Source: Methanolobus sp. WCC4 (lineage in GTDB: Archaea > Halobacteriota > Methanosarcinia > Methanosarcinales > Methanosarcinaceae). From it: a stretch of 64,000 nucleotides of DNA. The stretch's first letter is position 1; each line of letters opens with the position of its first letter. Positions 1,449-61,553 of this stretch are shown in pieces. The stretch spans positions 496,001-560,000 of the forward strand of contig NZ_CP150629.1 of NCBI RefSeq assembly GCF_038022665.1. The letters are read 5' to 3'. A model generated the notes under the pieces. That model had not been told where the DNA came from and made no database searches. It saw only the letters and a list, made by a program, of their open reading frames with translations. A program made the translations under genes and the position numbers.

Positions 1449-3296
1449 ATGACACAATACTTTGAGGTAGAGCAGCGGGATGGCGCTGCAAGGATAGGGA
1501 AACTCATGTTAAAAGAGACTATCCGGACCCCTTACATATTAGATACAAGAAGCCTTGGTTCCTCTGAGAGCCCCATAATAGATAGCGGTTCACTATGGAA
1601 ATATGCAGACAGAGAAGAAGCTGAGAAGAAGCTGACAGAGCTCCGGGAAAGAGCCGGTGATGATGCATTGATAATCCTCCCTCATCAGGACCTCACCCCT
1701 GATGCGCCACGTGACCTTGCAATGAAGCTTGCAGAAAGTTCAGAGTTTACAAGCACCGGAGCCACAGGGACCATATACATTCCCGGGCAGGAAGTAAAGG
1801 AACACGACCTCTATGTAATGGAGGGAGCAGGCTGCTTCGAGAACAATGCAAGGACCTTTCTCAATACACTGATCGGAATGAGAGATACGGTAGCATCCGA
1901 TACAGCCATCTATGCACCTAACATATGCACCCCTGAGAACCTTGCACTGCTCGTTTACCTTGGCGTTGATGTCCTTGACAATACAAGAGCGATCATCGCG
2001 GCACACAATGATATATTCCTCACCACAGCAGGACAGTTCTACCTGGACTCACTGTCAGAACTCCCGTGCAGATGCAGCGCCTGCTCATCAACAAGTGCAT
2101 CAGATCTCATGAAGATGGATAAGAAGAGCAGGGCAAAGATAGTTGAACAGCACAATATCGATACGATGGAAGCAGAAGCAGCCCTTGTCAGGGAAAAGAT
2201 ACGCAAGGGAATGCTGCGTGAGTACATCGAAGGACAATGCAGGGTCCATCCCTGGCTTACTGCCCTTATGAGACTTGCAGATGCCGAGTATGAATATATG
2301 GAAAGCAAGGCGCCTATCGCAAGGAAAGGGGCGCTTATCGCAACCTGCGGTGAATCACAGAACAGGGTCGAGATCGTCAGGTTCGCAAAAAGGATACAGG
2401 AAAGATATACTCCACCGGAAACCGATATCCTGTTACTTCTTCCGTGTTCTGCTAAAAAACCATATTCCACATCGAATTCCCACTGGAAGTTCATCAATGC
2501 CCTTGGGAAGAACAGGAAATTCGTCCACGAAGTGATAATCACATCACCTCTGGGAATCGTGCCCAGAGAGCTTGAACTTACATATCCTGCAGCACACTAC
2601 GATACTACCGTAACGGGATACTGGGATGCCGAAGAGAGAGAATGGGTGGCATCCTGCCTTGAGAACTACCTGTTACAGCATAGATACACGTCAATAGTTG
2701 CACATGTAGAGGATGCCTACCGCCAGATATGTGAGATGGTGGCAGAGAAACTTGGCATAGATATAATATATACCAGCCTTGGTAATGTGACATCACAGGA
2801 GTCGCTGAAGAAGCTCAGCACCACCATATCCGAACTCGCCACCGGGAGGAAACGCAGCCACATGCAGACCCAGAAGGATCTCATGAAAGCAGTCGCAGAT
2901 TATCAGTTCGGGAAAGGCTCAGGCCAGATACTCGTGCCTGAAGATTCGACCATAAAAGGACCCTTCCCAAAGCATCAGGTGTTCGTCGGAAAGAAGCAGC
3001 TCATCACACTTATACCACAATACGGAACCCTTGCGATCACCATTGATGGTGCCAGGGCAATTATGGAACAGGACCGTGGAAATCACATAGTGGAGATCGA
3101 TGATTTTGTTCCACGTGGCTCTTTACTTGCACCGGGAATTACAGATGCCGACCCATCGATAAGACCTAACGATGAGGTGCTCATACGTGGAAAGAAGGCA
3201 ATCGCAGTTGGTAGAGCAAACATGAACGGAGATGAGATGAGAAGATCTCACCGCGGGGTTGCGATCGACCTTCGTCATGTAAAGAAGATAGAATGA
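1449..3296 (+). CDS. arcS: archaeosine synthase ArcS, TGT-like with PUA domain
   Basis: A 615-residue protein of the tgtA2/ArcS family. ArcS acts on preQ0 at position 15 of archaeal tRNA, adding lysine on the way to archaeosine together with the radical-SAM partner RaSEA. The N-terminal half is TGT-like and keeps the zinc pattern CxCx2C (C207, C209, C212) with a histidine 23 residues later (H235). The ArcS-specific core carries PCSAKKPYSTSNSH at 332-345, the conserved motif that separates ArcS from TGT. The last ~75 residues form a PUA RNA-binding domain (GSLLAPGI ... PNDEVLIRG ... GVA). No arcS partner gene lies beside it here. The next gene starts 22 bases downstream, so co-transcription is likely. 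Confidence 0.93.
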   Translation: MTQYFEVEQRDGAARIGKLMLKETIRTPYILDTRSLGSSESPIIDSGSLWKYADREEAEKKLTELRERAGDDALIILPHQDLTPDAPRDLAMKLAESSEFTSTGATGTIYIPGQEVKEHDLYVMEGAGCFENNARTFLNTLIGMRDTVASDTAIYAPNICTPENLALLVYLGVDVLDNTRAIIAAHNDIFLTTAGQFYLDSLSELPCRCSACSSTSASDLMKMDKKSRAKIVEQHNIDTMEAEAALVREKIRKGMLREYIEGQCRVHPWLTALMRLADAEYEYMESKAPIARKGALIATCGESQNRVEIVRFAKRIQERYTPPETDILLLLPCSAKKPYSTSNSHWKFINALGKNRKFVHEVIITSPLGIVPRELELTYPAAHYDTTVTGYWDAEEREWVASCLENYLLQHRYTSIVAHVEDAYRQICEMVAEKLGIDIIYTSLGNVTSQESLKKLSTTISELATGRKRSHMQTQKDLMKAVADYQFGKGSGQILVPEDSTIKGPFPKHQVFVGKKQLITLIPQYGTLAITIDGARAIMEQDRGNHIVEIDDFVPRGSLLAPGITDADPSIRPNDEVLIRGKKAIAVGRANMNGDEMRRSHRGVAIDLRHVKKIE

Positions 3297-3318
3297 AACA
3301 GACCATAGTGGACCACAG

Positions 3319-3840
3319 ATGTTACTTATCAGGAAGTTCGAACCATCCGATTTTGAAGAGGTTCTGGAGATAGAGTCAGAGGCATTCTCTGAACATAATC
3401 CATTCCTCTACATGAACTTCTATGAAATGAACAGCGAAGGATTCCTCGTTGCCGAATATGAGAACTATATCGTGGGCTTCGTCGTCGGATATGCACTATC
3501 CTCAAATGAAGGAAGGATATTCTCCCTCGCTGTGAGAAATGGATACAGAAGCCTTGGGATCGGAGCGAGGTTGATGAGTTCGATCCTGGCAGTTTTCATG
3601 ACAAAGTTCCTTCAATTTGCAAGCCTTGAAGTAAGGATAACAAATGTCCGTGCCCAGAATTTCTACAGGCGGATGGATTTTCTACCATGCTGGATCGAGC
3701 ATGGCTATTATTCGGATGGAGAGGATGGCCTGATAATGAAGAAGCGCCTTACTCCCTTTGAACCTGTTTTCCTTGACAGCTCAAAAGGGTCAGCTTCATC
3801 GATGAAGAAGCAGGCCTTTGGATTCCCTTACAGGACCTAG
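3319..3840 (+). CDS. GNAT-family N-acetyltransferase (RimI-like)
   Basis: A 173-residue protein opening LLIRKFEPSDFEEVLEIESEAF, the usual start of the RimI/GNAT fold. The acetyl-CoA pyrophosphate loop is seen as RSLGIGARLM at about residues 78-87, and the motif-B region as NVRAQNFYRRMDF. Such enzymes acetylate protein N termini, ribosomal proteins or small amines; the target here cannot be told. It follows arcS by 22 bases, probably in the same transcript. Its stop codon overlaps the stop of the convergent UPF0058 gene (TAG at 3838-3840 against TAG at 3839-3837). The last ~25 residues are serine- and lysine-rich and lie beyond the fold. Confidence 0.85.
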   Translation: MLLIRKFEPSDFEEVLEIESEAFSEHNPFLYMNFYEMNSEGFLVAEYENYIVGFVVGYALSSNEGRIFSLAVRNGYRSLGIGARLMSSILAVFMTKFLQFASLEVRITNVRAQNFYRRMDFLPCWIEHGYYSDGEDGLIMKKRLTPFEPVFLDSSKGSASSMKKQAFGFPYRT

Positions 3841-4121
3841 TTCGTATGTGCCACGCTTTCACTTGCCTTTAAAGCAAGTTCCTGCATTCTGGAAGACGTC
3901 CTGCCAACACCGGATACATCATCCTGGGAAAGTGCAGAGGCAATATCATTACCGAGAACGAATATTGCATGTTTGTGTTCAGCTTTGCTCCTGTGTACAT
4001 GTAAAGGACTTATAGAAAGGGAATCATATTCGCCTAAAGGGTTGTGAATACCCATTTGTTCAAAGTGCTTCTTTATCTGTGCCATCAATGTGTGCAATTG
4101 TATCAATTCATCTTTATGCAT
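3837..4121 (-). CDS. UPF0058 family protein
   Basis: A 94-residue protein starting MHKDELIQLHTLMAQIKKHF, the typical N terminus of the archaeal UPF0058 family, whose function is unknown. An upstream in-frame ATG at 4139 exists. The start at 4121 was preferred because GGTTGGT lies just before it and because family members begin at this methionine. The protein is predicted mostly helical (hydrophobic heptads in residues 1-20) with a histidine-rich middle (HVHRSKAEHKH). It converges on the acetyltransferase gene with overlapping stop codons. Confidence 0.82.
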   Translation of the reverse strand: MHKDELIQLHTLMAQIKKHFEQMGIHNPLGEYDSLSISPLHVHRSKAEHKHAIFVLGNDIASALSQDDVSGVGRTSSRMQELALKASESVAHTN

Positions 4122-4370
4122 ACCAACCAACCTTCGCATATTTGTAAGAACTTGAGATGTTCATTTGTGCACTGTCAAAAATAATGCATCGTACATAGTT
4201 GGGAAATTTCTTATTAAAGGCATTTCCCCCGGAAAAGATTTCCGACTGGTCGATTTATAAGCATTTCTGCCTAATTACAATTATTAAACATGATAGATAG
4301 ACATATTACTCCATGATAAAAAAAATAGTCAATAAAAATTAATTCAATAAAAAATAAGAGAAATATATAC

Positions 4371-4384
4371 TGTGCGCAAGCACA
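4371..4384 (-). terminator. possible weak dnaG terminator hairpin
   Basis: TGTGC-gcaa-GCACA forms a five-pair stem 12 bases past the dnaG stop, followed on the minus strand by AT-rich sequence with short T runs. The stem is short, so this is tentative. The rest of the 4122-4395 gap is AT-rich, with no gene seen. Confidence 0.3.
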
Positions 4385-4395
4385 ATATACATAAA

Positions 4396-5799
4396 TTACA
4401 ATGAGGAGGCAGTCAGAACTTTGACAGAAGCGGGCCTTTTGGTCACATTGCCCACCTTGGCACCGACCAGACGCTCTATTCCTTTATCTGCTGCAATATC
4501 AAGGATCCTCTGAGTGACCACGCCGTCAAAGACAACGGTCTTAACCTCATCCTCATAATCCTTCAGCGTGCTTACAAGGTCACGAACAGCAGTCTCATTG
4601 ACAACATTGTCCTTGCCATCAAGGAATCGAGCACTGAAAGTACCAAGCAGGTCGGATGCATGTGTCTTGAACCTCTTGTTCTCAGGAGATACAGGTTTCT
4701 TAGACTTTGCTTCCACTGGCTTTTCTTCTTCTGGTGCTTCAATGCCAGTTTCCCTTCTGGAATCCCTTCTGGAGTCTCTTCCCCTTGCAGGCTTTGAAGA
4801 TTCTCTTGAAGGTTCTCTTGAAGGTTCCCTTGAAGGTTCTCTTGAAGGCCTGCTAACCTTGGGACTACCTACACGTTTAATATCAGGCGCTGGTGCAGCC
4901 CTTCTGTCCTTGCGCTTTGAAAGACGAGGTGCACGCCCACCATTGTCGTTCTGTCCGTTCTTGTCCTTGACAAGATACTTATCGATCACCTGTTCCACAG
5001 GAACCTTCTGCCTGAGTGACCTCACGATCTCTTTCTGTACGAGATCCTCAACGCTCTTCCCATCAGGTGCCCTTGCGATGAAATCAATGTTTGCTACCTG
5101 CACAAGTTCCTTGATGATAAGTTCCCCTCCACGGTCACCATCAGTGAACGCAGTTACTGTATCCTTCTTCTTGGTGAGTTCCGCAACCTCAGGAGGAACG
5201 TTGGTACCACCTACACAGATGGTGTTCTTGATACCGTATTTCAAAAGGTTCAGGACATCTGCACGGCCCTCTACAACGACGATCGCGTCGGAATCGAATA
5301 CTGCCGGTCCACATGGGATCTTGTTCTTACCGAAGTACTGCATTTCCTCGATCCTTACGGACTGACGTACCTCATCAGCTATCTCCTGGGACTCCGGGAG
5401 GTTCTCATCGAACATACCCTTGAAGATGAACTTTGCCCTCTCGATGATCTGGTGCCTCTTTGTTGCCCTTACATCCTCAATGTGGCTTATCTCGATCTTG
5501 GCACTGCAGGGTCCTACCCTGTCTATGGTTTCCAGGGATGCTGCAAGTATGGAGGTCTCTACTTTATCGAGACTTGATGGAATAAGAATAGTACCTCTGG
5601 TCTTACCAGCCTTTGCACTGACCACAACCTCGATCCTGCCGATCCTTCCTGTCTTCTGAAGGTCGCGGAGATCCAGATCGGAACCAAGCAAACCCTCGGT
5701 CTGGCCAAAGATCGCACCAACTATATCAGGGCGTTCTATTATTCCATCTGCATTGATCTTAGAGTGAATTATATATTTTGTAGTATCTGCATTTTGCAT
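4396..5799 (-). CDS. dnaG: archaeal DnaG-type primase / exosome-associated TOPRIM protein
   Basis: A 467-residue archaeal DnaG. In archaea this protein is found with the RNA exosome as an adaptor and has primase-like activity in vitro. The TOPRIM domain shows VVVEGRADV (E177) and AFTDGDRGG (D220, D222), the metal-binding acidic residues. The N-terminal ~165 residues match the archaeal DnaG domain. A basic linker of roughly residues 290-385 is rich in SR, RD and SREP units, then comes a C-terminal domain that includes [17 protein letters not shown] 5799 was chosen over the longer frame from 5865 because GGAG lies 8 bases upstream and the sequence from MQNADTTKY matches family starts. Confidence 0.93.
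4801..4848. repeat. four 12-bp tandem repeats inside dnaG
   Basis: Four units of TTCTCTTGAAGG (the third has TTCCC) lie head to tail and encode SREP repeats in the DnaG linker. Just upstream, SRRD-type repeats ([12 protein letters not shown]) continue the pattern. The length being a multiple of three keeps the frame, so copy number can vary without breaking the protein. Confidence 0.85.
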
Positions 5800-6443
5800 G
5801 TAATAATCTCCGAAATTTATTAATGAAGATACCGGAACAATTCGGAATACAAAAAAGTGAATCAATAACGCTACCAGAATATAGGTCGCAACGAAAGGTC
5901 CGTTATGTAAGCAGGACTAAATTCAATGATTAAACATTAAGATCTATACCTTATCTTAACCAACGCCAAGCTGAGAACAGCAGTAAGATACACTCTGCAC
6001 AAAATGTAAATGTGCTATTTCAACTGTTTACTGGCCTGGTCATAAGCAGTATTGCTAAATCCCTCATTGAATACTTTTAGCTTTTGACCTCTTACGCATC
6101 TTTTTTATGTTGTAACAGATGCTTTATCGATGAAGATCCTGTTGGATCGGTAGTGAATTACGAATGACTTAATTTGTATTATTGAAAGATACCCTTGTTC
6201 GTAGTATCTGTATTATCTTGTTTTCAAGCATGGTATGATCATATCATAATGATCGCATAAAGTAATAGAATTCAAAGTTTTATAAACTTATGGGTTGACA
6301 TTACACCTGTATATTTTCAGGATGTTTTGACATAGTTGCCCATATCAGGACCCTTGTGACAGTTGAAATATAAAACACACTCATCCTTACCTGTCACACA
6401 AGCAGGGAACAGGATTAATATCCAGACAGACATCTAAAATAAC
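5800..6443. other. 644-base intergenic region between dnaG and the flavoprotein gene
   Basis: No open frame of convincing coding character and no tRNA fold is seen. It must hold the divergent promoters of dnaG and the downstream flavoprotein. A TATA box and flanking inverted repeat at 6356-6397 serve the flavoprotein. Small dyads exist elsewhere (GCATC/GATGC around 6096-6126; a near-palindrome TATGATCATATCATA around 6235). The length leaves room for a small RNA gene, but nothing is recognisable. Confidence 0.5.
6356..6397 (+). promoter_or_regulatory. TATA box bracketed by inverted repeat GTGACAG/CTGTCAC
   Basis: GTGACAG (6356-6362) and CTGTCAC (6391-6397) form a perfect 7-base inverted repeat, extended with one break to TTGTGACAG/CTGTCACACAA. 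The 28-base space holds the TATA-like AAATATAAAA (6366-6375), 69 bases before the ATG. The placement over TATA and likely start site suggests a repressor operator. The binding protein is unknown. Confidence 0.45.
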
Positions 6444-7808
6444 ATGCAGGAAAATGAGCACAAAAAAGGGAAAGTAATAATAGTAGGTGCCGGTGCAGTT
6501 GGCATGGCCGTTGCCACAAGCCTCACACGCCACAGTAACTATTCCATAACTGTCTTTTCCACGGATAAGCACACAGCATACAGCCAGTGTGGAATGCCAT
6601 TCGCCATAGGAGGACAGATAGATTCCCTTGATTCACTGATCCTGAGGGACCCACAGACATTCAGGGACATGGGGATCGATCTCAGACTTGGAACAAAAGT
6701 CGATTCTATCGACCTTAAAGGAAGGTGCATCATTTCTGCTGGAGAAACATATCCTTTTGATAAACTTGTCATTGCCACAGGCTCCACACCAGAGATACCT
6801 TCCATCCCGGGTGCCACACTGGAGAATGTCTTCACTCTGAGAACACTGTCTGATGCAAAGAAAATAGACCAGGCATTGAATGATGTAACCAGAGCGATCA
6901 TAATAGGAGGAGGGTCCATAGGTGCAGAGCTGGCAGCAGCCACTTCCCGGAGGAACATCGATACCACACTTATCAACAGAAGTCCATCGATCCTCTCACA
7001 TAATATAGACCCCGATATGGCAGATCCTGTACAGGAACACCTGGAATCCCTGGGGGTGAAGGTCATAACAGGCTACGTACCGGAATCCATAAATGGGAAA
7101 AATAAGGTCGAATCCGTCACTATCACCTCCACCGCGTTCCCTGCAGACCTCGTAATAATAGCCACTGGCGTCAGCCCTGAGAATGAACTGGCATCTGAAG
7201 CAGGCATAGATATTGGAGAGACTGGTGGGATAATAGTTGACAGATACCTGCATCCTTCTGTTGGAGGAGAATACGACCAGGACATATACTGTGGCGGAGA
7301 ATGCACAGAGGTCCATGAACTGATCACAGGAAAAGCGATGTTGAGCCAGGTAGCAAGCACTGCGAGAAGAATGGCAGGTATCATTACCAACAATCTGACA
7401 TCAGAGCCAATGGAATTCGACCCCATTCTGAATCCCTGGGTAGCCCTTATAGGAGAAATTCAGGCAGGGACCACAGGGATCACTTCAAAGACCGCGATGG
7501 AAAATAACATTAAGATAGTAACAGGAATAGCCACTGGTTCTACACGTGCAAGTTATTATCCAGGCGGACGTGATATTTTCATCAAGCTCATATTCATTGA
7601 CAGATATCTGGCAGGAGCACAGGTAGTTGGAGGCGGGGGAGTCAAAGAGCGAATTGATGCACTCACACTCGCCATAAAGAAAAGGACAACTGTAGATGAA
7701 CTGGCAAATATCGAAACATGCTATGCACCTCCCTTAGCAATGCTCATAGACCCTGTGAGTTTCGCTGCAAAAGGTGCACTTAAGAAGATGCGCAACAGAA
7801 AGAAATGA
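6444..7808 (+). CDS. FAD-dependent pyridine nucleotide-disulfide oxidoreductase (CoA-disulfide reductase/NADH oxidase-like)
   Basis: A 454-residue flavoprotein with an N-terminal FAD motif (VIIVGAGAVGMAVA, residues 11-24) and a second Rossmann motif for NAD(P)H (AIIIGGGSIGAELA, near 153). C49 in YSQCGMPFAIGG sits where CoA-disulfide reductases and NADH oxidases hold their single redox cysteine. The family reduces CoA disulfide, polysulfide or oxygen with NAD(P)H, so a thiol-redox or oxygen-defence role is likely. The C-terminal dimerisation domain is present, and length is normal. The ATG of rtcA overlaps its stop (ATGA), so the two genes are translated from one message. Exact substrate is not decidable. 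Confidence 0.87.
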   Translation: MQENEHKKGKVIIVGAGAVGMAVATSLTRHSNYSITVFSTDKHTAYSQCGMPFAIGGQIDSLDSLILRDPQTFRDMGIDLRLGTKVDSIDLKGRCIISAGETYPFDKLVIATGSTPEIPSIPGATLENVFTLRTLSDAKKIDQALNDVTRAIIIGGGSIGAELAAATSRRNIDTTLINRSPSILSHNIDPDMADPVQEHLESLGVKVITGYVPESINGKNKVESVTITSTAFPADLVIIATGVSPENELASEAGIDIGETGGIIVDRYLHPSVGGEYDQDIYCGGECTEVHELITGKAMLSQVASTARRMAGIITNNLTSEPMEFDPILNPWVALIGEIQAGTTGITSKTAMENNIKIVTGIATGSTRASYYPGGRDIFIKLIFIDRYLAGAQVVGGGGVKERIDALTLAIKKRTTVDELANIETCYAPPLAMLIDPVSFAAKGALKKMRNRKK

Positions 7809-17643: not shown

Positions 17644-18666
17644 ATGAGAAATATTGAGAATATGGACGAAAATATGTACATGATCGGGATGAAAGATATA
17701 AGATGGACCATCCGTGTCTTTTTATTATCAGCAATAATTGCATTCTTCCTGAGCATTGTCGCCTACATACTGACACTGGCCTTCGCTGAACCTGAACCTG
17801 TGAGCGAGGTCATTATGAGCACAGCCTCTGCAGCCACTGCCAAGGTAGAGGTGACCTCTAATTACATCGACCCTATGTGGTCCATATTCATCTTCAACAG
17901 TATTGCAGCCACCTGTGCCGTTATCGGGACAGGGCTCTTCATGATGGTCCACACCCTGTTGATCGCTGATATAGCCATGAGACCGAAGCACCGGATATAC
18001 TCTCGTTTTTCCATCATCTTCGAGATAGCCATGAAGCCGCTGTACACTTTACTCATCAAAATAACAGCACTTGTAGACAGGGACTTCTCCTTGATCGGAA
18101 AGAGCGAAGATAAAGTGGAAGGAACTATCTGGGAATACTGTGGCTACGGCAAGGATGAGTACAGGATGTTCTCCTACATGCTTCCATATACGGTTCCACT
18201 TCTGATACTGATGGTGAATGGAGCACTCATGGGAATTCTCCTTGCGTTCTTCGTATTCAACGGAGCGATGACAGGATTTGAACTCTTTGGAACTAAGGGT
18301 ATCTTCATAGGTCTGCTATACAATGCTGTCTATTTCTTCATCTCAATAATCCCCCACGGCATCATCGAGATACCTGTGATCCTCGTAGCAGCAGCTCTGG
18401 GATACAGGTTCGCATATTCACAGGCCCATGATGTGATAGACAAAGAATTGTTCGACAGGAATGATATCATCGGACTGAAAGAGGATGCTGCATATACTTC
18501 TGCTGCTGCAAGGGAATACATACTCTCAGGATACACATGGAAGATGCTCGCTATTATCATATTGATACTGCTGATTGCAGCTTACATTGAGACCGACATT
18601 ACACTGAAGGTCGTTGATCATGTTATGGCTGTGCTCGATGGATATCTGGAACCATTGCTTGCCTGA
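17644..18666 (+). CDS. SpoIIM-like (DUF95) integral membrane protein
   Basis: A 340-residue membrane protein with about six hydrophobic segments: 26-46 (VFLLSAIIAFFLSIVAYILT), ~80-105, ~180-205, ~215-240, the PHGIIEIPVILVAAALGYR segment and a C-terminal ~300-320 segment. The PHGIxEIP motif is the hallmark of the stage II sporulation protein M family, widespread in archaea, where it is linked to membrane remodelling or transport; its exact job is unknown. A large cytoplasmic loop covers roughly residues 110-175. A decayed copy of its last 47 codons lies at 21493-21633, beyond the following protease gene, showing that this 3' end was duplicated. Confidence 0.8.
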   Translation: MRNIENMDENMYMIGMKDIRWTIRVFLLSAIIAFFLSIVAYILTLAFAEPEPVSEVIMSTASAATAKVEVTSNYIDPMWSIFIFNSIAATCAVIGTGLFMMVHTLLIADIAMRPKHRIYSRFSIIFEIAMKPLYTLLIKITALVDRDFSLIGKSEDKVEGTIWEYCGYGKDEYRMFSYMLPYTVPLLILMVNGALMGILLAFFVFNGAMTGFELFGTKGIFIGLLYNAVYFFISIIPHGIIEIPVILVAAALGYRFAYSQAHDVIDKELFDRNDIIGLKEDAAYTSAAAREYILSGYTWKMLAIIILILLIAAYIETDITLKVVDHVMAVLDGYLEPLLA

Positions 18667-18703
18667 TCGCATTTCATTTTATATTTTTTTATGATGAAAT
18701 TAA

Positions 18704-18714
18704 GTATTTATAAG
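18704..18714 (+). promoter_or_regulatory. probable TATA box of the first subtilase gene
   Basis: AGTATTTATAA lies about 35-40 bases before the protease start. The same sequence is duplicated at 21671-21680 before the second protease, within a longer stretch of shared upstream sequence. Confidence 0.5.
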
Positions 18715-18746
18715 ATAGTCAAAATAATCTAATCAGCACATTTCAT

Positions 18747-21353
18747 GTGGTGGTTAAATTGGATAAGTACTTAAAAACAATTTTTGCAATACTAGCGGTT
18801 AGCATGCTGACCCTGGGAACACTGACACCAGCTCTTGCTGTCAGCCCAAAAACGTACAGTTTTGAAGATGATCTTGAGGTTGCATCTTTGCAGCTTGAAA
18901 ATGGAAAGATACCGGTTATTATCACATTCAAAGGTAAACCTGATGCAGCCGTGGTTAAAGCAGCCGGTGGAGATGTTAAACAGGAATACACCATAATTCC
19001 TGCGATCTCGGCAAATGTTCCTGAAGAAGCACTTTTCGGACTCTCACATAACCCAAATATTGATCTTGTAGAGTATGATGCAAAGGTTCATGCAACGGAA
19101 CAAACAACTCCCTGGGGCATCGAGAAGATAGGAGCCTCACAGGTGCATTCAGAATATGCGAATACAGCTGACGGGATCAAGGTTGCCATCCTCGATACGG
19201 GGATCGATTACAACCATCCTGACCTGGACGATAACTATGTCGGCGGTTATGACTTTGTGAATAATGACAATGATCCATGGGATGACCAATATCACGGAAC
19301 ACATTGTGCAGGGACTGTAGCAGCCGAGGACAATACAGAGGGCGTGGTTGGAGTAGCACCAGCTGCCGATCTCTACGCACTGAAAGTGCTGGATTCCAGC
19401 GGATCGGGATACTACTCCTCTATCATATCTGCTCTGGAATGGGCAGTTGAAAATGATATAGATGTTGCGTCCATGAGTCTGAGTGGCCCATCTGATCTAA
19501 ATACCCTTAGGAAGGCATGTGATAATGCTTACAATAGTGGAGTCGTTTTAGTGGCGGCAGCCGGAAATGATTATGGTGGCAGTGTTGATTATCCTGCAGC
19601 TTATGATTCTGTAATTGCAGTGTCAGCTACTAACGAGAATGACATCATCGCAGATTTCTCAAACATTGGCCCCCAGGTAGAGATTGCAGGTCCTGGAGTG
19701 AATGTATATTCCACATTCCCAACCAGATATGGTTCTTATTATTACTTAGGTGGTACTAGTATGGCGACACCACATGTAACAGGTACAGTGGCACTGTTGC
19801 TGAATACGGTAATACCTGCAGACTATGATACCAACGGGAACAGTAATTGGGACCCTGATGAGGTAAGGGAAAGGTTGCACGATACAGCCTATGACCTCGG
19901 AGATGATGGAAAGGACGATTACTATGGATATGGTCTTGTGGATGCTTATGCTGCAGTGAACTATGAGCCTGCAGGGAATCAGGCACCAGTTGCAAGTATG
20001 ACCATCACACCTGAAATTACCCGGATAGGCGATACTATCACCTTTAATGCATCAGGTTCAACAGATGATGACACTATCGTCTCGTACACATGGGACTTTG
20101 GAGATGGAAACACAGGAAGCGGAGAAATCGTCACACATACCTACACTGCTGATAATGATTATCTTGTAAACCTGACAGTTGTTGATAATGAAGGTGCGAT
20201 AGGTACTGCTGAAGGATGGGTTGTTGTCCTGCCACAGAATGAAGCACCTGCAGCTGTAATGACTATCACTCCCGAAACTGCGAATGTAGACGAAGGAGTC
20301 TTTTTTGATGCTTCGTTGTCAACAGATACTGATGGAATGATCACGGGTTACATGTGGAATTTAGGCGATGGAAGCAGTTCTAACGATGAAAATGTTACAC
20401 ATGCTTACGATACTGCCGGAGATTATACAGTAGAATTGACAGTTTTCGATGACATGGGGGCAACTAATACAACCACCGGAACGGTCACAATTGTTCAGCC
20501 AAACAGGGCACCTGTGGCAGTAATGGACATGCCTTCCAGTGCATATGAAGGCGAAGCAGTTGATTTTGATGCATCAGCTTCGACAGACCCCGACGGGAAC
20601 AGCATCTCATACTCATGGAACTTTGGAGATGGAGACACATCCGTTGAAATGAAGCCTCAGCATACTTACACTACTACCGGAACATATGACGTGACCCTAA
20701 CAGTTACTGATGTTGAAGGGCTGACAAACACTACATCAGGAAGCATCACTATAAATGAGATTCTGGTGAATGAGGCTCCAACAGCAAGGATCACAATGCC
20801 AGCAACTGCATATGCAGGTGAACCTGTAACTTTCGATGCTTTGCTGTCAACGGATGATGGCACAATCGTCTCATATGCATGGGACTTTGAAGACGGAAGC
20901 GGAAGCGGGGTGGAAGTTGTACACACCTATAGCAATATCGGTGTTTATAATGTAAGCCTGACAGTGACGGATGATGGAGGACTTACAAATACCACAACCG
21001 GAACTATAGAAATAACTGAGGCTCCGGTAGTTGCACCAGTAGTGACAGTTGACGTAGAGCCGGTATTTAAAATTGCAGGCAAGAATGTCTTTATCCATGC
21101 AACTGCAACGATAACTGTAATGCAAGAGGATAATCTTATTTCAGGAGCAATTGTCAACGGACACTGGGAAGGCACAACAGGTGATTCTGACTCTGCAACA
21201 ACCGATGCAAGTGGAACAGTAACTGTTGATTCTGATTCAGGAAAGTATCCGATAACTTCATCTCTGGATTTCACCTTCGTGGTGGATTCCGTGGTTATTG
21301 GAGAAACTACCTACGAAGATGGAACATGGATAGGAACGGGTTCCTATCAATAA
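18747..21353 (+). CDS. secreted subtilisin-like (S8) protease with four PKD domains
   Basis: An 868-residue exported protease. A signal peptide spans about residues 5-32 (LKTIFAILAVSMLTLGTL then ALA). An I9-like propeptide runs to ~118. The S8 catalytic domain has D150 (ILDTGIDYNHP), H183 (HGTHCAGT), oxyanion N274 (AAAGND) and S338 (GGTSMATPH). Four PKD domains follow from ~409, each starting APVASM/APAAVM/APVAVM/APTARI and holding a WDFGDG-type motif. A ~100-residue beta-rich tail ends the protein. PKD repeats bind surfaces or polymers, so it is probably cell-surface or secreted. GTG 18747 is listed; TTG 18759 with GGTGG five bases upstream is an equally good start, removing four residues. 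Confidence 0.93.
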   Translation: MVVKLDKYLKTIFAILAVSMLTLGTLTPALAVSPKTYSFEDDLEVASLQLENGKIPVIITFKGKPDAAVVKAAGGDVKQEYTIIPAISANVPEEALFGLSHNPNIDLVEYDAKVHATEQTTPWGIEKIGASQVHSEYANTADGIKVAILDTGIDYNHPDLDDNYVGGYDFVNNDNDPWDDQYHGTHCAGTVAAEDNTEGVVGVAPAADLYALKVLDSSGSGYYSSIISALEWAVENDIDVASMSLSGPSDLNTLRKACDNAYNSGVVLVAAAGNDYGGSVDYPAAYDSVIAVSATNENDIIADFSNIGPQVEIAGPGVNVYSTFPTRYGSYYYLGGTSMATPHVTGTVALLLNTVIPADYDTNGNSNWDPDEVRERLHDTAYDLGDDGKDDYYGYGLVDAYAAVNYEPAGNQAPVASMTITPEITRIGDTITFNASGSTDDDTIVSYTWDFGDGNTGSGEIVTHTYTADNDYLVNLTVVDNEGAIGTAEGWVVVLPQNEAPAAVMTITPETANVDEGVFFDASLSTDTDGMITGYMWNLGDGSSSNDENVTHAYDTAGDYTVELTVFDDMGATNTTTGTVTIVQPNRAPVAVMDMPSSAYEGEAVDFDASASTDPDGNSISYSWNFGDGDTSVEMKPQHTYTTTGTYDVTLTVTDVEGLTNTTSGSITINEILVNEAPTARITMPATAYAGEPVTFDALLSTDDGTIVSYAWDFEDGSGSGVEVVHTYSNIGVYNVSLTVTDDGGLTNTTTGTIEITEAPVVAPVVTVDVEPVFKIAGKNVFIHATATITVMQEDNLISGAIVNGHWEGTTGDSDSATTDASGTVTVDSDSGKYPITSSLDFTFVVDSVVIGETTYEDGTWIGTGSYQ

Positions 21354-21370
21354 GAATAGTTTGATCAAAT

Positions 21371-21404
21371 AGTGTCCTTCTGGACACTAATTCTCTTTTT
21401 TTGT
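21371..21404 (+). terminator. terminator after the first subtilase gene
   Basis: AGTGTCC-ttct-GGACACT is a perfect seven-pair hairpin 18 bases past the stop, followed by TAATTCTC and a run of seven Ts. Confidence 0.75.
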
Positions 21405-21492
21405 TTATAATATGGTTCCTTTTATCGTATTAACAGTGACCGTATAATATTCATGAATAGCTTCTCAGAAAGCCACAGCTTGCAGATCAATA

Positions 21493-21633
21493 TCAGGATA
21501 TGAGTGGAAGATGCTCTGAATGGTCATTCTAGTAGTAATGGTCACAGCGTATATTGAGACCGATATTGCGCTGGGAATCGTGGATTCTGTTATGTCTATG
21601 CTTGATGGTTATCTGGAACCAATGCTCAACTGA
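21493..21633 (+). pseudogene. decayed duplicate of the 3' end of the SpoIIM-like gene
   Basis: Translated in one frame this gives SGYEWKML, a TGA stop, then VILVVMVTAYIETD, DIALGIVDSVMSML and DGYLEPMLN followed by TGA. The intact gene ends SGYTWKML ... AAYIETDITLKVVDHVM ... LDGYLEPLLA. The match covers about 47 codons and continues into the shared untranslated sequence and promoter before the second subtilase. Upstream of 21493 the similarity fades quickly. It has no start codon of its own and is not expected to be translated. It shows that a segment holding the spoIIM tail, the intergenic region and the protease N terminus was duplicated. Confidence 0.85.
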
Positions 21634-21670
21634 TTTTTTTTTCATTTTATATATTTGGAGTATAAAATTA

Positions 21671-21680
21671 AGTATTTATA
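21671..21680 (+). promoter_or_regulatory. probable TATA box of the second subtilase gene
   Basis: AGTATTTATA lies ~40 bases before the GTG at 21715, in the same position as at the first subtilase. It is part of a duplicated upstream segment, so both proteases may be expressed under the same conditions. Confidence 0.5.
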
Positions 21681-21714
21681 GAGTAGTCCAAATAAGTTAA
21701 TTAGCACATATAAT

Positions 21715-23670
21715 GTGGTGGTTAAATTGGATAGGTACTTAAAAACAATTTTCACAATACTAGCGGTCAGCATGATGGTCGTGGGAACAATGGCACCTGC
21801 CATGGCTGTCAGTTCCAAAGCGTATAGTTTTGAAGACAATCTTGAAGTTGCATTGCCCAATGTGGCCTATGAGCTACCATATGTACCAGGGGAGATATTG
21901 GTAAAGTTCAACACCGGCGTGTCTGAAGCCAAGATGAATGCCATGAACTCAAAGAATGGAGCAACTGTGATTGCTACAAGTTCTTACACTAATCTCAAGA
22001 AAATAAAGATTCCCAAGACGAAATCTGTGGAAGAGATGGTGAATGTCTATAAAAAGAATTCTGATGTTGAATATGCTTCAGCAAACTACGTGATGTATGC
22101 AGCAATGCTGCCAAATGACCCGCTATATAACTATCAGTGGAACTTCAACAATTCAACAACCGGAATCAATGTTGAACCTGCATGGGATTTATCAGATGGT
22201 TCGGGAGTCATCGTTGCTGTATTGGATACTGGAGTTCTTTATAGTGACATCTATGACTCAAATGTATTTTATGATCTTGAAGACACCACTTTTGTGCAGG
22301 GACATGACTATATAAACAATGATGATGACCCAGCAGATGACAATGGACATGGAACACATGTAACCGGAACCATAGCCCAGTCTACCAATAATAATAAAGG
22401 AGTGGCAGGAATTGCATATAATTGTTCTATCATGCCTATAAAAATCCTGGATAAAAGAGGAAGTGGAGATATTTATCAGTTGATAGAGGGTATAAAATAT
22501 GCAACAACCGAGGGAGCAGATATTATCACTATGAGCCTTGGTTTTCCTCCAACATTCGATTCAGAGAGTGGTGCAGGTATTGAACTAAAAAACGCAATTG
22601 ATGACGCATACGCTGCAGGTATTACTATAACAGCAGCTGCAGGGAATGGAGCAACAGGCACTGTTAATTATCCTGCTGCATATGTTAACTGTATTGCAGT
22701 TGGAGCAACAAGCTATGATGGTGATTTGGCCTACTACTCAAATTGGGGGACTGCAATTGATGTAGTAGCACCTGGAGGGGACATGAAAGAGAACCTATTT
22801 ATCCCCAGTGATACCTACTACGATGGTATACTTCAGAGCACCTTTGAACGTAATCCTAGGTACCTTAATTACTATTTCTTCCAAGGAACTTCCATGGCAA
22901 CACCACATGTTGCAGGTGTCGCAGCCCTGGTGATATCCCACTATGAGAAAGAAAATGGAGTAAAACCCTCACCTGCACAAGTAAGAGAAGCAATTGAATA
23001 TACTGCAAGTAATGGACCTGATGGATGGAACAGCGTATATGGATATGGGCTTATTGATGCAGAGGCTGCATTGAACTATAAGAGTTCTTCAACTACTCCA
23101 ACAAATACTCCACCAGATGCAGATGCAGGTGGTACATATTCCGGAACTGTAGGCAATGCAGTGACCTTTGATGGTTCGGGTTCATACGACTCTGATGGAA
23201 CAATAGTCTCATATTCCTGGGACTTTGGTGACGGAGCAACCGAATCAGGAGTGAGTCCAACTCATCCCTATGCAGCTACAGGGACTTTCACAGTGACACT
23301 GACGGTGGAAGATAATGGAGGTCTTACAAATCAGGACACAGCAATAGTAACTATATCAGAACCATCCACAGACTCAACTATGTATGCAACTGTAATATGC
23401 CCGCCAGCATCACAGGTAAATAGGATAATGTACGAGGCAACAGCAATCGTGACAATTGTTAATGAAACGGGTGGTCCTGTGGAAGGAGCTATTGTATATG
23501 GAGATTTCACTATTCCCAGCGGAATTCTATCTGTTTCAGGAGTGACAGACGGAAACGGAAAAGTAGAAATTAGTTCTGGAAATTACAAAGCCTCTACAGA
23601 TGCAGTCACATTTACTGTAACTGACGTTACTCATTCAGACTACATCTATGAATCAGATATTGCTCAGTGA
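21715..23670 (+). CDS. secreted subtilisin-like (S8) protease with one PKD domain
   Basis: A 651-residue exported protease. The signal peptide and first ~46 residues (MVVKLDRYLKTIF ... SFEDNLEVA) nearly copy the first subtilase. The propeptide then switches to the fervidolysin-like type (VPGEILVKFNTGVSEAKM, 58-75). The catalytic domain has D171 (AVLDTGV), H212 (GHGTHVTGT), N311 (AAAGNG) and S393 (GTSMATPH), with an insertion around 360-388. One PKD domain (about 489-570, SWDFGDG) and a ~95-residue beta-rich tail follow. The start is GTG 21715 or TTG 21727 preceded by GGTGG. The chimeric N terminus suggests recombination between protease genes. It likely degrades extracellular protein. Confidence 0.92.
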   Translation: MVVKLDRYLKTIFTILAVSMMVVGTMAPAMAVSSKAYSFEDNLEVALPNVAYELPYVPGEILVKFNTGVSEAKMNAMNSKNGATVIATSSYTNLKKIKIPKTKSVEEMVNVYKKNSDVEYASANYVMYAAMLPNDPLYNYQWNFNNSTTGINVEPAWDLSDGSGVIVAVLDTGVLYSDIYDSNVFYDLEDTTFVQGHDYINNDDDPADDNGHGTHVTGTIAQSTNNNKGVAGIAYNCSIMPIKILDKRGSGDIYQLIEGIKYATTEGADIITMSLGFPPTFDSESGAGIELKNAIDDAYAAGITITAAAGNGATGTVNYPAAYVNCIAVGATSYDGDLAYYSNWGTAIDVVAPGGDMKENLFIPSDTYYDGILQSTFERNPRYLNYYFFQGTSMATPHVAGVAALVISHYEKENGVKPSPAQVREAIEYTASNGPDGWNSVYGYGLIDAEAALNYKSSSTTPTNTPPDADAGGTYSGTVGNAVTFDGSGSYDSDGTIVSYSWDFGDGATESGVSPTHPYAATGTFTVTLTVEDNGGLTNQDTAIVTISEPSTDSTMYATVICPPASQVNRIMYEATAIVTIVNETGGPVEGAIVYGDFTIPSGILSVSGVTDGNGKVEISSGNYKASTDAVTFTVTDVTHSDYIYESDIAQ

Positions 23671-23712
23671 GACCACAACAATTTGAAAACAAATATAGAT
23701 TTTGATATTATG

Positions 23713-23740
23713 AAAAGGCATTATGCAATGCCTTTTCTAT
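23713..23740 (+). terminator. terminator after the second subtilase gene
   Basis: AAAAGGCATT-atgc-AATGCCTTTT is a perfect ten-pair hairpin 42 bases past the stop, ending in Ts and followed by CTATTGTTTTTAAT. Confidence 0.75.
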
Positions 23741-23775
23741 TGTTTTTAATAACAAATGTAATGTTAATTGACAAA

Positions 23776-23928
23776 TTACTCGTTCTTATACCCTTTCCTG
23801 AACTCAGCTACACCTTCAGCAACATACTCAACAACTGAGCTGCAATCTCCTGTGTAGGCAAAAAACTAGACCACAATCCAGACCTGCATATTTTATGTTC
23901 TCACCGGAGATGGAGTATGCGTGTATCC
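23776..23928 (-). pseudogene. decayed 3' end of a second metE-like gene
   Basis: The minus strand encodes AYSISGENIKYAGLDCGL, then after a frameshift PTQEIAAQLLS, then after a second frameshift EYVAEGVAEFRKGYKNE and TAA. The intact metE at 25442 ends AYSMFGESIKYAGPDCGLGSWPTQEIAAQLLS...VAEGMEGFRRLQ in pieces. The match covers ~48 codons; the differing last residues say this was a separate paralogue, not a recent copy. No start codon. It sits just downstream of the third subtilase gene, on the same strand as metE. Confidence 0.85.
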
Positions 23929-24040
23929 GTCCCTTCGACAGGAAATTATGGGTCATTAGAGTGTTACAAAGCTGAATATTCCCATATTGAATGTAATTTT
24001 GAGTGAATCAATCACTATTTTAATTCTGCTTGTTACTACG

Positions 24041-25186
24041 TCAATCCAATACCGCTTCCAAAGATGTATTTGCATTAACGAGCCCGTAACCATAAAGCCC
24101 ATCCTTACCCTCATCACCAAGGTCTGTAGCTGTTGCATCAAGTATTTTGCGTACTTCTACAGGGCTTAGTGTACTGTTAACACTGAGCAGAAGGGCAACT
24201 GCCCCAGAAACATGAGGAGCGGCCATGCTTGTACCACTCCTGTGATCATATCCCCCTTCCAGAGTTGTGGAATAGATGCTGGAACCAGGTGCACACAGTT
24301 CGATCTCATTTCCACTGCTTGAAAAACAAGTGTTGGAATTAACGATCGATATTGCCGAGACAGCAATGACCTGATCGTAGGCTGCCGGATAGCTGACGTT
24401 GCCACCGTAGCTGTTTCCTGCTGCTGCTACGATAACAATGCCTGAATCATAGGCAGCCTGACATAGCTCAAACATGGACGTGAAATTGTCACTCCCTCCC
24501 AGACTCATGGAAATAACATCCATATCATTATCAATTGCCCAGTCTATAGCAGCATTTATGTCAGACAGCCATCCAGTACCCTGGTGATCCAGAACTTTCA
24601 GCGCATAGAGTTCCACGCCGGGAGAAACACCTATAACACCGATACCATCATCTGCTGCGGCTATTATGCCAGCCACATGGGTCCCATGACCTTTATCATC
24701 CATGGGGTCTGCATCACTGTTCACAAAATCATAGCCTCCATGATAGCTGCCTGCAAGGTCAGGATGCATATAATCAATTCCAGTGTCAATAAGAGCAACC
24801 TTTACTCCAGACCCACAGCATAGATCATGCACTCTATCAGCTTCGATCCTACACACTCCCCAGGGAACTTTTTCGTCGGGATAGAACAACAGCGGTTCTT
24901 CATCAATATATACCTCAGAATCCAGTTCCACATATCTCACACCAGAATCGGCTTTTATAGACATAATGCTGTTCTGGGGTACAACGGCTGCAATCGCAGG
25001 GATGGCATGGTACTGATATTTGATATCACCCCCATATTCCTCCACAAGTACAACATCCGGGCTGCTTTGGAAGCAAATAATGACAGGTACCTTTTTTTGA
25101 AATATCTGTCCGGCTGCAGCCGACATAACGATCACTGCAATAAGAATGAATGCACTAACCGCCATAGGAGTTAAAGTGCTTTTCAC
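24041..25186 (-). CDS. secreted subtilisin-like (S8) protease, no PKD domains
   Basis: A 381-residue minimal subtilase. A signal or anchor segment spans residues 8-25 (MAVSAFILIAVIVMSAAA). An I9-like propeptide (VPVIICFQSSPDVVLVEE) runs to ~100. The catalytic domain holds D134 (LIDTGIDYMHP), H167 (GHGTHVAGI), N258 (AAAGNS) and S320 (SGTSMAAPH). The sequence stops right after the S8 fold (YGYGLVNANTSLEAVLD), so it lacks the PKD repeats of the other two. It most resembles the first subtilase in its propeptide logic and catalytic loops. It lies between the intact metE upstream and the metE remnant downstream on the same strand. Export to the pseudoperiplasm or medium is expected. Confidence 0.92.
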   Translation of the reverse strand: MKSTLTPMAVSAFILIAVIVMSAAAGQIFQKKVPVIICFQSSPDVVLVEEYGGDIKYQYHAIPAIAAVVPQNSIMSIKADSGVRYVELDSEVYIDEEPLLFYPDEKVPWGVCRIEADRVHDLCCGSGVKVALIDTGIDYMHPDLAGSYHGGYDFVNSDADPMDDKGHGTHVAGIIAAADDGIGVIGVSPGVELYALKVLDHQGTGWLSDINAAIDWAIDNDMDVISMSLGGSDNFTSMFELCQAAYDSGIVIVAAAGNSYGGNVSYPAAYDQVIAVSAISIVNSNTCFSSSGNEIELCAPGSSIYSTTLEGGYDHRSGTSMAAPHVSGAVALLLSVNSTLSPVEVRKILDATATDLGDEGKDGLYGYGLVNANTSLEAVLD

Positions 25187-25400
25187 TTTCCCACTCTCTT
25201 TAGCTTAGATGATCCCAACTCTAAGCTTTAGTTCCCCATTAAAGATCTACTCAGGAAGGATATAATATTTTGGGCATTACATATACTTTTTATAAATATT
25301 AGTTAATAGGATGCTGATTTTTTAATGTGCTAAAGAAAAGTGCTACATATACTCAAATATCGACAGCTAGAAAAAGAAACGTTAAGGATTGAATAAAACC

Positions 25401-25430
25401 CGGCTTGGTGTACAAAACACCTATATGCCG
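25401..25430 (-). terminator. terminator after metE
   Basis: On the minus strand CGGC-atata-GGTGT-tttgt-ACACC-aa-GCCG folds into a two-part stem 11 bases after the metE stop, followed by GGGTTTTATT. Confidence 0.6.
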
Positions 25431-25441
25431 AGCAAGATCAT

Positions 25442-26476
25442 TTATTGCAATCTCCTGAACCCTTCCATACCCTCAGCAACATTACTCAATAACTGAGCAG
25501 CGATCTCCTGCGTAGGCCAGGAACCCAGTCCACAGTCAGGACCTGCATATTTTATGCTCTCACCGAACATGGAGTAGGCCTTTGAAAGTCTCTTTTCTAT
25601 TGTTTCAGGGGTTTCCATCTCATTGATGATCTCAGGGAAATACCGGGTGTCCTTCCAGACATTGGTGTTATACTTTTCATTGAGAACTGCAACGAGGTTG
25701 AAGATATCCGTCCTTGCGATACCAACACGCATGTAGGAGTCACTGTCCTCGAGTTCCTTTTTGTCTATAAGGTCAAGATAGGATGGAGTTGCTGCGGATT
25801 CGACACCGATAACACTGATATTCTCGGTCTGACAGGCGATCTTGTAATGCAGTGGTGAATGGAGGTGGATCTCCACATCGCAACCGGCTTTTCTGGCAGA
25901 GCTGCATGCGATGTCCATTGACTTGATAAGGTCGTTGTCAGAGAACATTACCTGGGGATTGATACCGATACTTGGCTCATCGATCGATACTGTCCTTATG
26001 TTGAAGTCCTTTGCACTGGAAAGTGAGTTCTTCACGAAGCGGTCCACACTCTCACCCAGCAGGTTCAGTATATCGACATACTCTGTCCCACCGAATTCCT
26101 TGAGATAGAGTTCAAGAGGACCGGTGACACAGACACGGACATCCAGCTTTTTACCGTGTTCTTCCCTGTAGGCCTTTGCAACCGTCTCTATGGCATCGAG
26201 TTCGATGATACGGGCATCGGATGTCTTCACTTTGAACGGTTCCTCGGTGCAGTTAGGGTCCCTGATGATGGAAAGGAACTGCTCGTTCATATCCTGGTAC
26301 TGGGGATATGTCGGTACTTCCACACCTGCCTCAACTTTCTTCATGAAAGCATCGTTAATGACCCTGAACAGGTCTGCATCGCTTTTCTTCTCAGAGAACT
26401 TTCCGGTCATCCATTCCTTAGATGTGCCTTCCGGAAGAGGAAAACTGCCAATATCGTCAAAGATGATCTCTGCCAT
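25442..26476 (-). CDS. core methionine synthase (cobalamin-independent MetE C-terminal type)
   Basis: A 344-residue protein matching only the catalytic C-terminal half of MetE, as in methanogens where a methyl-corrinoid rather than methyltetrahydrofolate is thought to donate the methyl group to homocysteine. The opening DDIGSFPLPEG, the substrate region ISIDEPSIG (here VSIDEPSIGIN) and the last zinc cysteine in GPDCGLGSW are present. The first zinc site reads EIHLHSP, with histidine where MetE usually has cysteine (HxC), and a candidate Glu ligand lies in GVESAATP. ATG 26476 was chosen over 26530 because homology starts at MAEIIFDDIGS. A decayed tail of a paralogue is at 23776-23928. Confidence 0.86.
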   Translation of the reverse strand: MAEIIFDDIGSFPLPEGTSKEWMTGKFSEKKSDADLFRVINDAFMKKVEAGVEVPTYPQYQDMNEQFLSIIRDPNCTEEPFKVKTSDARIIELDAIETVAKAYREEHGKKLDVRVCVTGPLELYLKEFGGTEYVDILNLLGESVDRFVKNSLSSAKDFNIRTVSIDEPSIGINPQVMFSDNDLIKSMDIACSSARKAGCDVEIHLHSPLHYKIACQTENISVIGVESAATPSYLDLIDKKELEDSDSYMRVGIARTDIFNLVAVLNEKYNTNVWKDTRYFPEIINEMETPETIEKRLSKAYSMFGESIKYAGPDCGLGSWPTQEIAAQLLSNVAEGMEGFRRLQ

Positions 26477-26571
26477 GCCACTGTTATTCGCCTGTATTTC
26501 ACTTATAAGTTTTGAGTGATGACAGGACACTTAGTATCTTCTGTAGACCTGGTATCCTTAGTACTCACCGG

Positions 26572-26958: not shown

Positions 26959-27011
26959 TTTGTTCCCCTTTAGAGAATGGATGAGCATCGCATTTGAATA
27001 TAACCCATTTT

Positions 27012-27198
27012 TGGGCTCTGTAGAACTCATTTCTTTCTATATAAACCGCAGATGCACGCAGATAAACGCGGATTCAAATTAACTATATCTGCGTGACCTG
27101 CTGAACGAAAGTTCAGCAGGCATCCAACTCCGAAGGAGATGGATGGATCTGTGTTTATCTGTGGTTGGCAATAATGCAAAGGTTTTCTACAGAGCCCA
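27012..27198. mobile_element. MITE-like inverted-repeat element with two internal hairpins
   Basis: TGGGCTCTGTAGAA (27012-27025) and its perfect inverse TTCTACAGAGCCCA (27185-27198) bound a 187-base element. Inner arms AACCGCAGATGCACGCAGAT (from ~27044) and ATCTGTGTTTATCTGTGGTT (27147-27166) are also inversely related. The centre holds CCTGCTGAAC-GAAA-GTTCAGCAGG, a perfect ten-pair stem with a GAAA tetraloop, then ATCCA-a-CTCC-GAA-GGAG-a-TGGAT. There is no open frame for a transposase. The right arm recurs at 61481-61540, so the sequence is dispersed in the genome. A transposase-dependent miniature element is the best guess; a structured RNA is an alternative. Confidence 0.6.
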
Positions 27199-46906: not shown

Positions 46907-48112
46907 TTAACAACGGTCATCAGCGAACAACTTCTTCGCAAAAGCAATCCTCTCTTCAAGATCAGGACCCTCGAATTCCTCTGCAACCTTTTCGAGCATA
47001 TCAGGTATCAGGATATGCTGAGGGCATTCATCCAGGCACTTACCACACTGAGTACACTGTGAAGCGAAGTTGGTATCTGCACCTCTGAGAATGCCGCCTA
47101 ACTTAGCAGCGTACATCATCTTCAGCCTGTCTTCGCCACCGAACATATGCAGGTTGTTGTAGACATCAAAACATGCAGGGATATCCACACCTGCGGGACA
47201 TGGCATACAGTATCTGCATCCGGTACAGTTGATCTTCATAAGCTCACCGTACTTCTCCGCTACCCTGCTTACAAGTCCCAGTTCCTTCTCTGTCAGTGAA
47301 TTTGCAAGACCTTCATCTGCTATCCTCAGATTCTCCTCCACATGTGCAGGCTCGCTCATGCCTGAAAGTACTACAGTGACCTCCGGATGGTTCCATACCC
47401 ATCTCAGGGCCCATGCCACAGGACTGCGTTTCACATCGGCCTCGTTCCAGATATCCATCACTTCTCCTGGAACAGGGTCTGCAAGACTTCCACCACGAAG
47501 AGGCTCCATTATAACCACACCAAGACCTTTTGATGCTGCATACTTCAATCCTGCCGTTCCTGCCTGCACATTGGTATCCAGGAAATTGTACTGGATCTGG
47601 CAGAAGTCCCAGTCATAGGCATCAACGATTGGTGCAAAATCTTCAGGAGCACCATGATAGGAGAATCCTGCATTGATGATACGACCATCGGCCTTTGCCC
47701 TGTCAAGGAAATCAAGGATCCCGAGGGCACTGCTGGTCTCCCAGCTGCTTTTCACGAGACTGTGTATCAGATAATAGTCAATATGATCGGTGTTCAGCTT
47801 CTCAAGCTGGGCATTGAGGAACCTGTCCATATCCTCGGGTGTTTTCACCATCCACTGGGGTAGTTTTGTGGCGAGCTTTACCTTCTCCCTGTAACCGTCA
47901 GCAAGTGCGCGGGCAAGGAAAGGCTCACTTTCTCCCATATGATACGGCCAGGCAGTATCCACATAGTTGACGCCATTGTCTATCGAGTGGCGGACCATCT
48001 GCGTTGCCTTTCCCTCATCGATGCTTCCATCTTCTTTCACCGGCAGGCGCATTGCACCAAAACCGAGTATCGAAAGCTCATCTGCATTCCTTGGCATTTT
48101 TCTGTATAGCAT
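46907..48112 (-). CDS. aldo/keto reductase with C-terminal 4Fe-4S ferredoxin domain
   Basis: A 401-residue fused protein. The aldo/keto reductase barrel (1-285) has LGFGAMRLP, NYVDTAWPYHMGESE (catalytic Asp and Tyr), LATKLPQW (Lys) and DYYLIHSL (His), a complete tetrad. The C-terminal part carries CTGCRYCMPCPAGVDIP and CTQCGKCLDECPQ, two 4Fe-4S sites. Such proteins are common in methanogens and clostridia and probably reduce carbonyls with ferredoxin or NAD(P)H; the substrate is unknown. GGAG lies 8 bases before the ATG. It follows a paralogue by 45 bases, so they form one operon. Confidence 0.9.
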   Translation of the reverse strand: MLYRKMPRNADELSILGFGAMRLPVKEDGSIDEGKATQMVRHSIDNGVNYVDTAWPYHMGESEPFLARALADGYREKVKLATKLPQWMVKTPEDMDRFLNAQLEKLNTDHIDYYLIHSLVKSSWETSSALGILDFLDRAKADGRIINAGFSYHGAPEDFAPIVDAYDWDFCQIQYNFLDTNVQAGTAGLKYAASKGLGVVIMEPLRGGSLADPVPGEVMDIWNEADVKRSPVAWALRWVWNHPEVTVVLSGMSEPAHVEENLRIADEGLANSLTEKELGLVSRVAEKYGELMKINCTGCRYCMPCPAGVDIPACFDVYNNLHMFGGEDRLKMMYAAKLGGILRGADTNFASQCTQCGKCLDECPQHILIPDMLEKVAEEFEGPDLEERIAFAKKLFADDRC

Positions 48113-48157
48113 CTATGGATCTCCTTTCTCTGAATAAGTGAGAACACCAATTAAATA

Positions 48158-49357: not shown

Positions 49358-49468
49358 CCTCTTACACTCCATATCCATTTCTAAAAATGACTAATCAGTC
49401 ATTTAACACTAAGACTACTTAAAGGCTCTGCAAAGGAATATAAAGAATGAAATGGTCCATTTTCCTGT

Positions 49469-61480: not shown

Positions 61481-61540
61481 ATCTGTGTTTATCTGCGTGT
61501 ATCTGTGGTTTCTGATAAAGCAGAGGTTTTCTACAGAGCC
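61481..61540. repeat. half copy of the inverted-repeat element
   Basis: ATCTGTGTTTATCTG...ATCTGTGGTT followed by GGTTTTCTACAGAGCC matches the right arm of the element at 27012-27198 (16 identical bases at the end). No left arm or hairpins are present. It lies between the RNase HI gene start and the end of the iron-sulfur gene. Confidence 0.7.
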
Positions 61541-61553
61541 AAAAAACAAAGGA

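Follow-up and report, generated by a model that had tools for sequence, protein, structure and literature searches.

How do genes for secreted proteases come to be followed, on their own strand, by decayed fragments of the 3' end of the gene upstream of them? This question is raised by the locus between spoIIM and metE in the window, that is, the whole 64-kb stretch of DNA analyzed here, which is part of the single-contig, 2.85-Mb genome of a Methanolobus species. The open reading frame list gives spoIIM, sub1 and sub2 on the plus strand and sub3 and metE on the minus strand, the same gene order as in the initial annotation. The metE frame is listed as 25442-26530 on the minus strand, with the true start most likely at 26476. 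The features of the locus are as follows.

17644-18666, plus strand: complete gene for a spoIIM-like membrane protein (PF01944), left partner of a conserved convergent pair
18526-18885, plus strand: reference copy of the repeated block, with the final ~141 bp of spoIIM, the intergenic promoter region and the sub1 start with its signal-peptide leader
18747-21353, plus strand: sub1, predicted secreted S8 subtilase of 868 aa with four PKD repeats
21371-21388, plus strand: terminator-like hairpin AGTGTCC-TTCT-GGACACT, 3' of sub1
21493-21634, plus strand: spoIIM tail', a decayed spoIIM 3' end, 72-73% identical to 18526-18667
21640-21853, plus strand: second copy of promoter region and signal-peptide leader, which is the sub2 start, 83% identical to 18672-18885
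21715-23670, plus strand: sub2, predicted secreted S8 subtilase of 651 aa with a fervidolysin-type propeptide and one PKD domain
23793-23953, minus strand: metE tail', a decayed, frameshifted metE 3' end between sub3 and sub2
24041-25186, minus strand: sub3, predicted secreted S8 subtilase of 381 aa
25442-26476, minus strand: complete gene for a metE-like methionine synthase (NF004712/PRK06052 subfamily), right partner of the convergent pair

All three proteases belong to peptidase family S8 (PF00082 at 3.8e-59 to 1.1e-63) and contain the DTG, HGTH and GTSMA motifs with D, H and S. As spoIIM and metE are adjacent and convergent, all 6.8 kb form a single insertion-rich intergenic site common to both cases of a protease followed by a gene end.

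Both tail copies described in the initial annotation were present near the positions given there, and their similarity was far above chance. In a self-BLAST of the 64-kb window, 18526-18885 matched 21493-21853 over 361 bp (77.6%, E 3.5e-76) and 23796-23920 matched 25453-25579 over 127 bp (81.1%, E 1.1e-25). Only one repeat in the window is stronger; it lies at 47-49 kb and consists of two ~970-bp segments in tandem (47141-48113 and 48386-49358), which are 73% identical and probably paralogous genes. A short element with inverted ends is found at 27008-27196 (21-bp arms at 27012-27032/27178-27198) and again at 61481-61546; it has 32 full or partial matches across the genome and looks like a MITE-type repeat.

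On the spoIIM side, the initial annotation was right about the gene fragment and missed that the homology continues past the gene end, through the intergenic promoter region and into the first ~46 codons of sub2. The duplicated unit therefore consists of spoIIM end, promoter and signal peptide, and the protease bodies behind the two leader copies are of different types. On the metE side, the tail' carries frameshifts and stops. No more spoIIM homology was detected upstream of 21493 (score 11, shuffle mean 12), an extension of the window metE tail' up to the sub3 stop was not significant, and between protease stop and tail there was no added metE or spoIIM homology on either the sub3 or the sub1 side. 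The far junctions are non-homologous, with the metE tail' lying behind the sub3 end and the spoIIM tail' behind the sub1 flank. For these copies neither a donor nor junction microhomology was identified. The stretch behind sub1 (21389-21492) was considered as a third metE remnant. It scored 33 against the G004 sub2 flank (shuffle maximum 24), but the signal came from the terminator, without which the score was 16 (95% shuffle level 18), and a third remnant is therefore not claimed. The idea that other protease genes might show the same pattern found no support in this genome: gene-end repeats were not seen at three further subtilase loci (1.29, 1.91 and 2.08 Mb), two of which have no direct repeats of at least 60 bp and the remaining one only tandem and dispersed repeats taken as intragenic.

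The site was then compared across 27 Methanolobus genomes, including M. vulcani PL 12/M (G074), M. vulcani B1d (G075) and Methanolobus sp. Soudan_27 (G015). spoIIM and metE form a conserved convergent pair in the genus. The site is empty in 14 of the 27 species, with the stop codons 16-43 bp apart and nothing between them. Subtilases, one to three each and of three kinds, occupy it in ten species, a non-subtilase secreted protein in one (G007), and in two the assembly breaks at the site. Versions of the locus turn over: it occurs empty, as spoIIM-sub2-metE, as spoIIM / sub3-metE, or in combinations. At least eight changes (gain or loss) in the presence of site proteases are required on the rpoB tree, and a single well-supported rpoB clade contains both occupied (G005, G074, G075) and empty sites (G001, G073). 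Proteases of the sub2 type follow spoIIM in G004, G005, G006, G018, G071, G074 and G075 and, in another genus, in G120, G121 and G122; the sub1/core type does so in the window, G118 and G031. The sub3 type follows metE in the window, G003, G004, G018 and G074, and a related enzyme is found in G017 and G116. No species of the genus was found with a spoIIM-sub1-metE arrangement.

The spoIIM-metE gap of G007 (L075, oriented 2380-3531) contains a different, apparently secreted protein of 383 aa and that of G032 (L102, oriented 2321-4798) three other ORFs, apparently a regulator, a permease and one more; the site therefore takes other cargo too. G120 has a broken second sub2-type protease behind an intact one at the same site (L098, oriented 6260-7521). 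G035, G036 and G038, of a related genus, have two to four subtilases arrayed in tandem at a different locus (L109, L110, L111). A search of the open literature returned no paper on this spoIIM-metE locus.

The order metE, sub3, metE tail', sub2 is also found in G074, where the tail' comprises 234 bp or more (L088, about 3771-4004), and in G004, where the metE remnant is much shorter (L072, about 3864-3958, reverse orientation). Like both window tails, these stranded ends are 3' ends only. The initial annotation had proposed a repeated process on the basis of two independent cases. Repetition is supported by the metE tail of G074, the remnant of G004 and the number of site changes; independence in place is lost, as both cases lie in the same intergenic site. 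G074 and G004 have common sequence directly 3' of the sub3 stop (score 22, shuffle maximum 18) and their sub3 proteins are sisters (80% identical, support 100/99). The species themselves are not sisters, rpoB placing G074 with G005 and G004 with G002/G009/G015.

At sites where the metE genes of G005 and G074 differ, the G074 tail' matches G005 at 32 and its own metE at 11 (p 0.002 uncorrected, about 0.025 corrected for 13 comparisons), and a tree constraining it to its own metE is worse by 4.5 log units (p-AU 0.08). For the G004 remnant, which by itself is too short to discriminate, the matching-site count was 14 versus 6. Tails adjoining sub2 resemble the metE ending 'FRKGL', which adjoins sub2 in G075 and in G005, a genome with the spoIIM-sub2-metE arrangement, and the sub2-side tails of G074 and G004 also carry the hairpin that adjoins sub2 in G005. 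On these grounds, the tail on the sub2 side resembles a resident metE end that belonged next to sub2, and the newcomer would be the complete end next to sub3. In G122, what had looked like one more metE remnant proved on inspection to be no more than a short insertion next to a shared terminator.

In one species at least (G003), in which sub3 adjoins metE, an exchange took in both the 3' end of metE and the protease next to it. Over its first ~760 columns, G003 metE is 70-72% identical to nearly all other species, and the data reject grouping this 5' part with G004/G009/G015 (44.8 log units, p-AU 0.004). Over the last ~260 columns, identity to G004/G009/G015 reaches 83% and the sequence groups with these species (98/95), the breakpoint lying at about column 750-800. 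Placing the 3' part of G003 outside the main clade costs 10.8 log units at a p-AU of 0.11, so that its placement with G004/G009/G015 is well supported if not beyond doubt. A metE 3' quarter from another clade is the footprint that one-sided homologous recombination bringing sub3 would be expected to leave. The spoIIM gene of G003 showed no clade shift like that of its metE, and no clear case of a mosaic spoIIM 3' end was found. In G008, G013, G014 and G018 (L076, L080, L081, L085), a grouping of the metE 3' quarter with G006/G071 is about as compatible as their own clade, and the 5' part strongly rejects the G006/G071 grouping (p-AU 1.6e-74). This suggests that exchange of metE 3' ends may also occur at sites that lack a protease.

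In the phylogeny of the catalytic domains, sub2 stands apart from sub1, sub3 and core with full support. The leader, four PKD repeats, C-terminus and terminator of window sub1 resemble sub2-type genes, its hairpin being of the type found 3' of sub2 in G004, G005, G006, G074 and G075. In propeptide and catalytic domain the enzyme belongs to the sub1/core type and is nearest to G118 (65-67%). Judged by these similarities, window sub1 is a chimera in which the leader and C-terminus of the locus surround another catalytic domain. In another genus of the family, G118 (sub1-type) and G121/G122 (sub2-type) have an almost identical leader, and body exchange behind a constant leader is therefore not unique to the window.

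Several processes could in principle place proteases between gene ends and decayed copies of those ends. Decay of complete second copies of spoIIM and metE, formerly arranged in tandem and alternating with the proteases, could account for a frameshifted pseudogene piece such as the metE tail'. The initial annotation had tied this explanation to full-length second copies in related genomes, but no second full-length spoIIM or metE exists in any of the 27 Methanolobus genomes, at the site or elsewhere, which rules out such decay for all practical purposes; moreover, all tails in the window, G074 and G004 are 3' ends. Mobile elements that integrate into gene 3' ends, as e14 does in icd, regenerate the host gene end and displace the old one. 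A site-specific integrative element of this kind, inserting with a replacement end, would leave the geometry seen here, a complete gene with a new end, an insert and a displaced old end, and the metE mosaic breakpoint does fall close to where the G074 tail' begins (-274 from the stop). Nevertheless, we consider such elements highly improbable, given that no ORF for an integrase or other recombinase lies between spoIIM and metE in the window, where only the three proteases are found, that each insert is one protease gene, and that the repeats have no identical short core and are 73-83% alike over 140-360 bp.

Short tandem duplications within the genome carry more weight. They would have copied a 2967-bp unit of spoIIM 3' end, leader and protease as well as the metE end around sub3, and the protease bodies would later have diverged or been converted by other subtilases. 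The spacing between the copies, which is constant (2968/2967) across the 361-bp left block, argues for such an origin, as do the closest match of the spoIIM tail' to the window's own spoIIM (72%, versus 67% to G004), the weak grouping of the window metE tail' with its own metE (68/54) and the sub2-type leader, PKD repeats, C-terminus and terminator retained by sub1. However, the catalytic domains of sub1 and sub2 fall into two deeply separate clades and the C-termini and terminators of the pair differ. In addition, the sub2 leader is nearer to G004 (87%) and G075 (86%) than to the sub1 leader (81%), sub3 is without a second copy, and exchange between lineages is indicated by the G074 tail' and by the mosaic metE of G003. 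As a general account we regard tandem duplication as possible, though on the unlikely side. For the spoIIM side of the window, a short tandem duplication followed by exchange of the protease body would be a serious rival, because neither window tail is clearly nearer to another species than to its own full-length gene and their phylogenetic signal is too weak to tell self from another lineage. Of the two options in the initial annotation, duplication plus decay fails for full-length second copies, the genes being single-copy in all congeners, and could hold in the short form for spoIIM/sub1/sub2; insertion that regenerates the host gene end is the better fit for the metE/sub3 side.

We favour, with a probability of roughly 60%, the reading that secreted subtilases are exchanged by recombination in the gap between spoIIM and metE and that versions of the locus were sometimes joined illegitimately, which stacked proteases and left gene ends stranded. 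DNA from a relative would pair with the resident flanking gene, metE or spoIIM, as its homologous anchor, and illegitimate joining would attach its far end inside the resident copy of the same flanking gene. The new protease would arrive with a complete gene end and the complete gene would stay outermost, while the old resident end would be stranded beyond the new protease, beside the older one, and would then decay. In the window both sides would have been affected, spoIIM-sub1 being set before spoIIM tail'-sub2 and metE-sub3 before metE tail'-sub2, with sub2 as the older core. Reading the window as stacked versions (spoIIM-sub1 / spoIIM tail'-sub2-metE tail' / sub3-metE) draws on the stranded ends in G074 and G004 and on the exchanged metE ends (G003). 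The direction of each transfer is inferred. A bolder version, which we hold to be rather unlikely, would make the gap a recombinase-free archaeal cassette site. A fixed promoter and signal-peptide leader behind spoIIM would provide the homology at which interchangeable protease bodies dock, flanking gene ends would do the same for the addition of whole proteases, and the repertoire of secreted proteases would diversify by interspecies allelic exchange.

The proposed steps resemble those suggested for the T6SS effector-immunity modules of Vibrio cholerae (Kirchberger et al., 2017, PMC5361080). In that model, incoming DNA finds its anchor in a conserved upstream stretch, its opposite end is attached by illegitimate joining, and the older gene moves downstream; arrays grow and are later transferred as a whole by ordinary homologous recombination. 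V. cholerae retains the old immunity genes as orphans, whereas the stranded pieces at the spoIIM-metE site are decayed ends of flanking housekeeping genes. The archaeal site further differs in using both flanks and in having secreted proteases as cargo. A constant leader before exchangeable bodies, as in the promoter and signal peptide of sub1 and sub2 and likewise in G118 and G121/G122, is shared with bacterial T6SS/Rhs displacement arrays. Unlike these, the site has no immunity genes and no toxin delivery, and the downstream genes are full-length proteases and not orphan toxin tips. An experimental account of homology-facilitated illegitimate recombination in bacteria (PMC3240628) describes one homologous and one non-homologous junction per insertion, the same pair that we propose here from archaeal sequence.

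With a stranded gene end at each junction, the locus would record in legible form how methanogenic archaea gain accessory genes without mobile elements. Were this reading confirmed, the mechanism proposed for displacement arrays at bacterial weapon loci would also build arrays of secreted proteases in archaea, and illegitimate joining after DNA exchange between species could be studied at the spoIIM-metE site as a natural test case.
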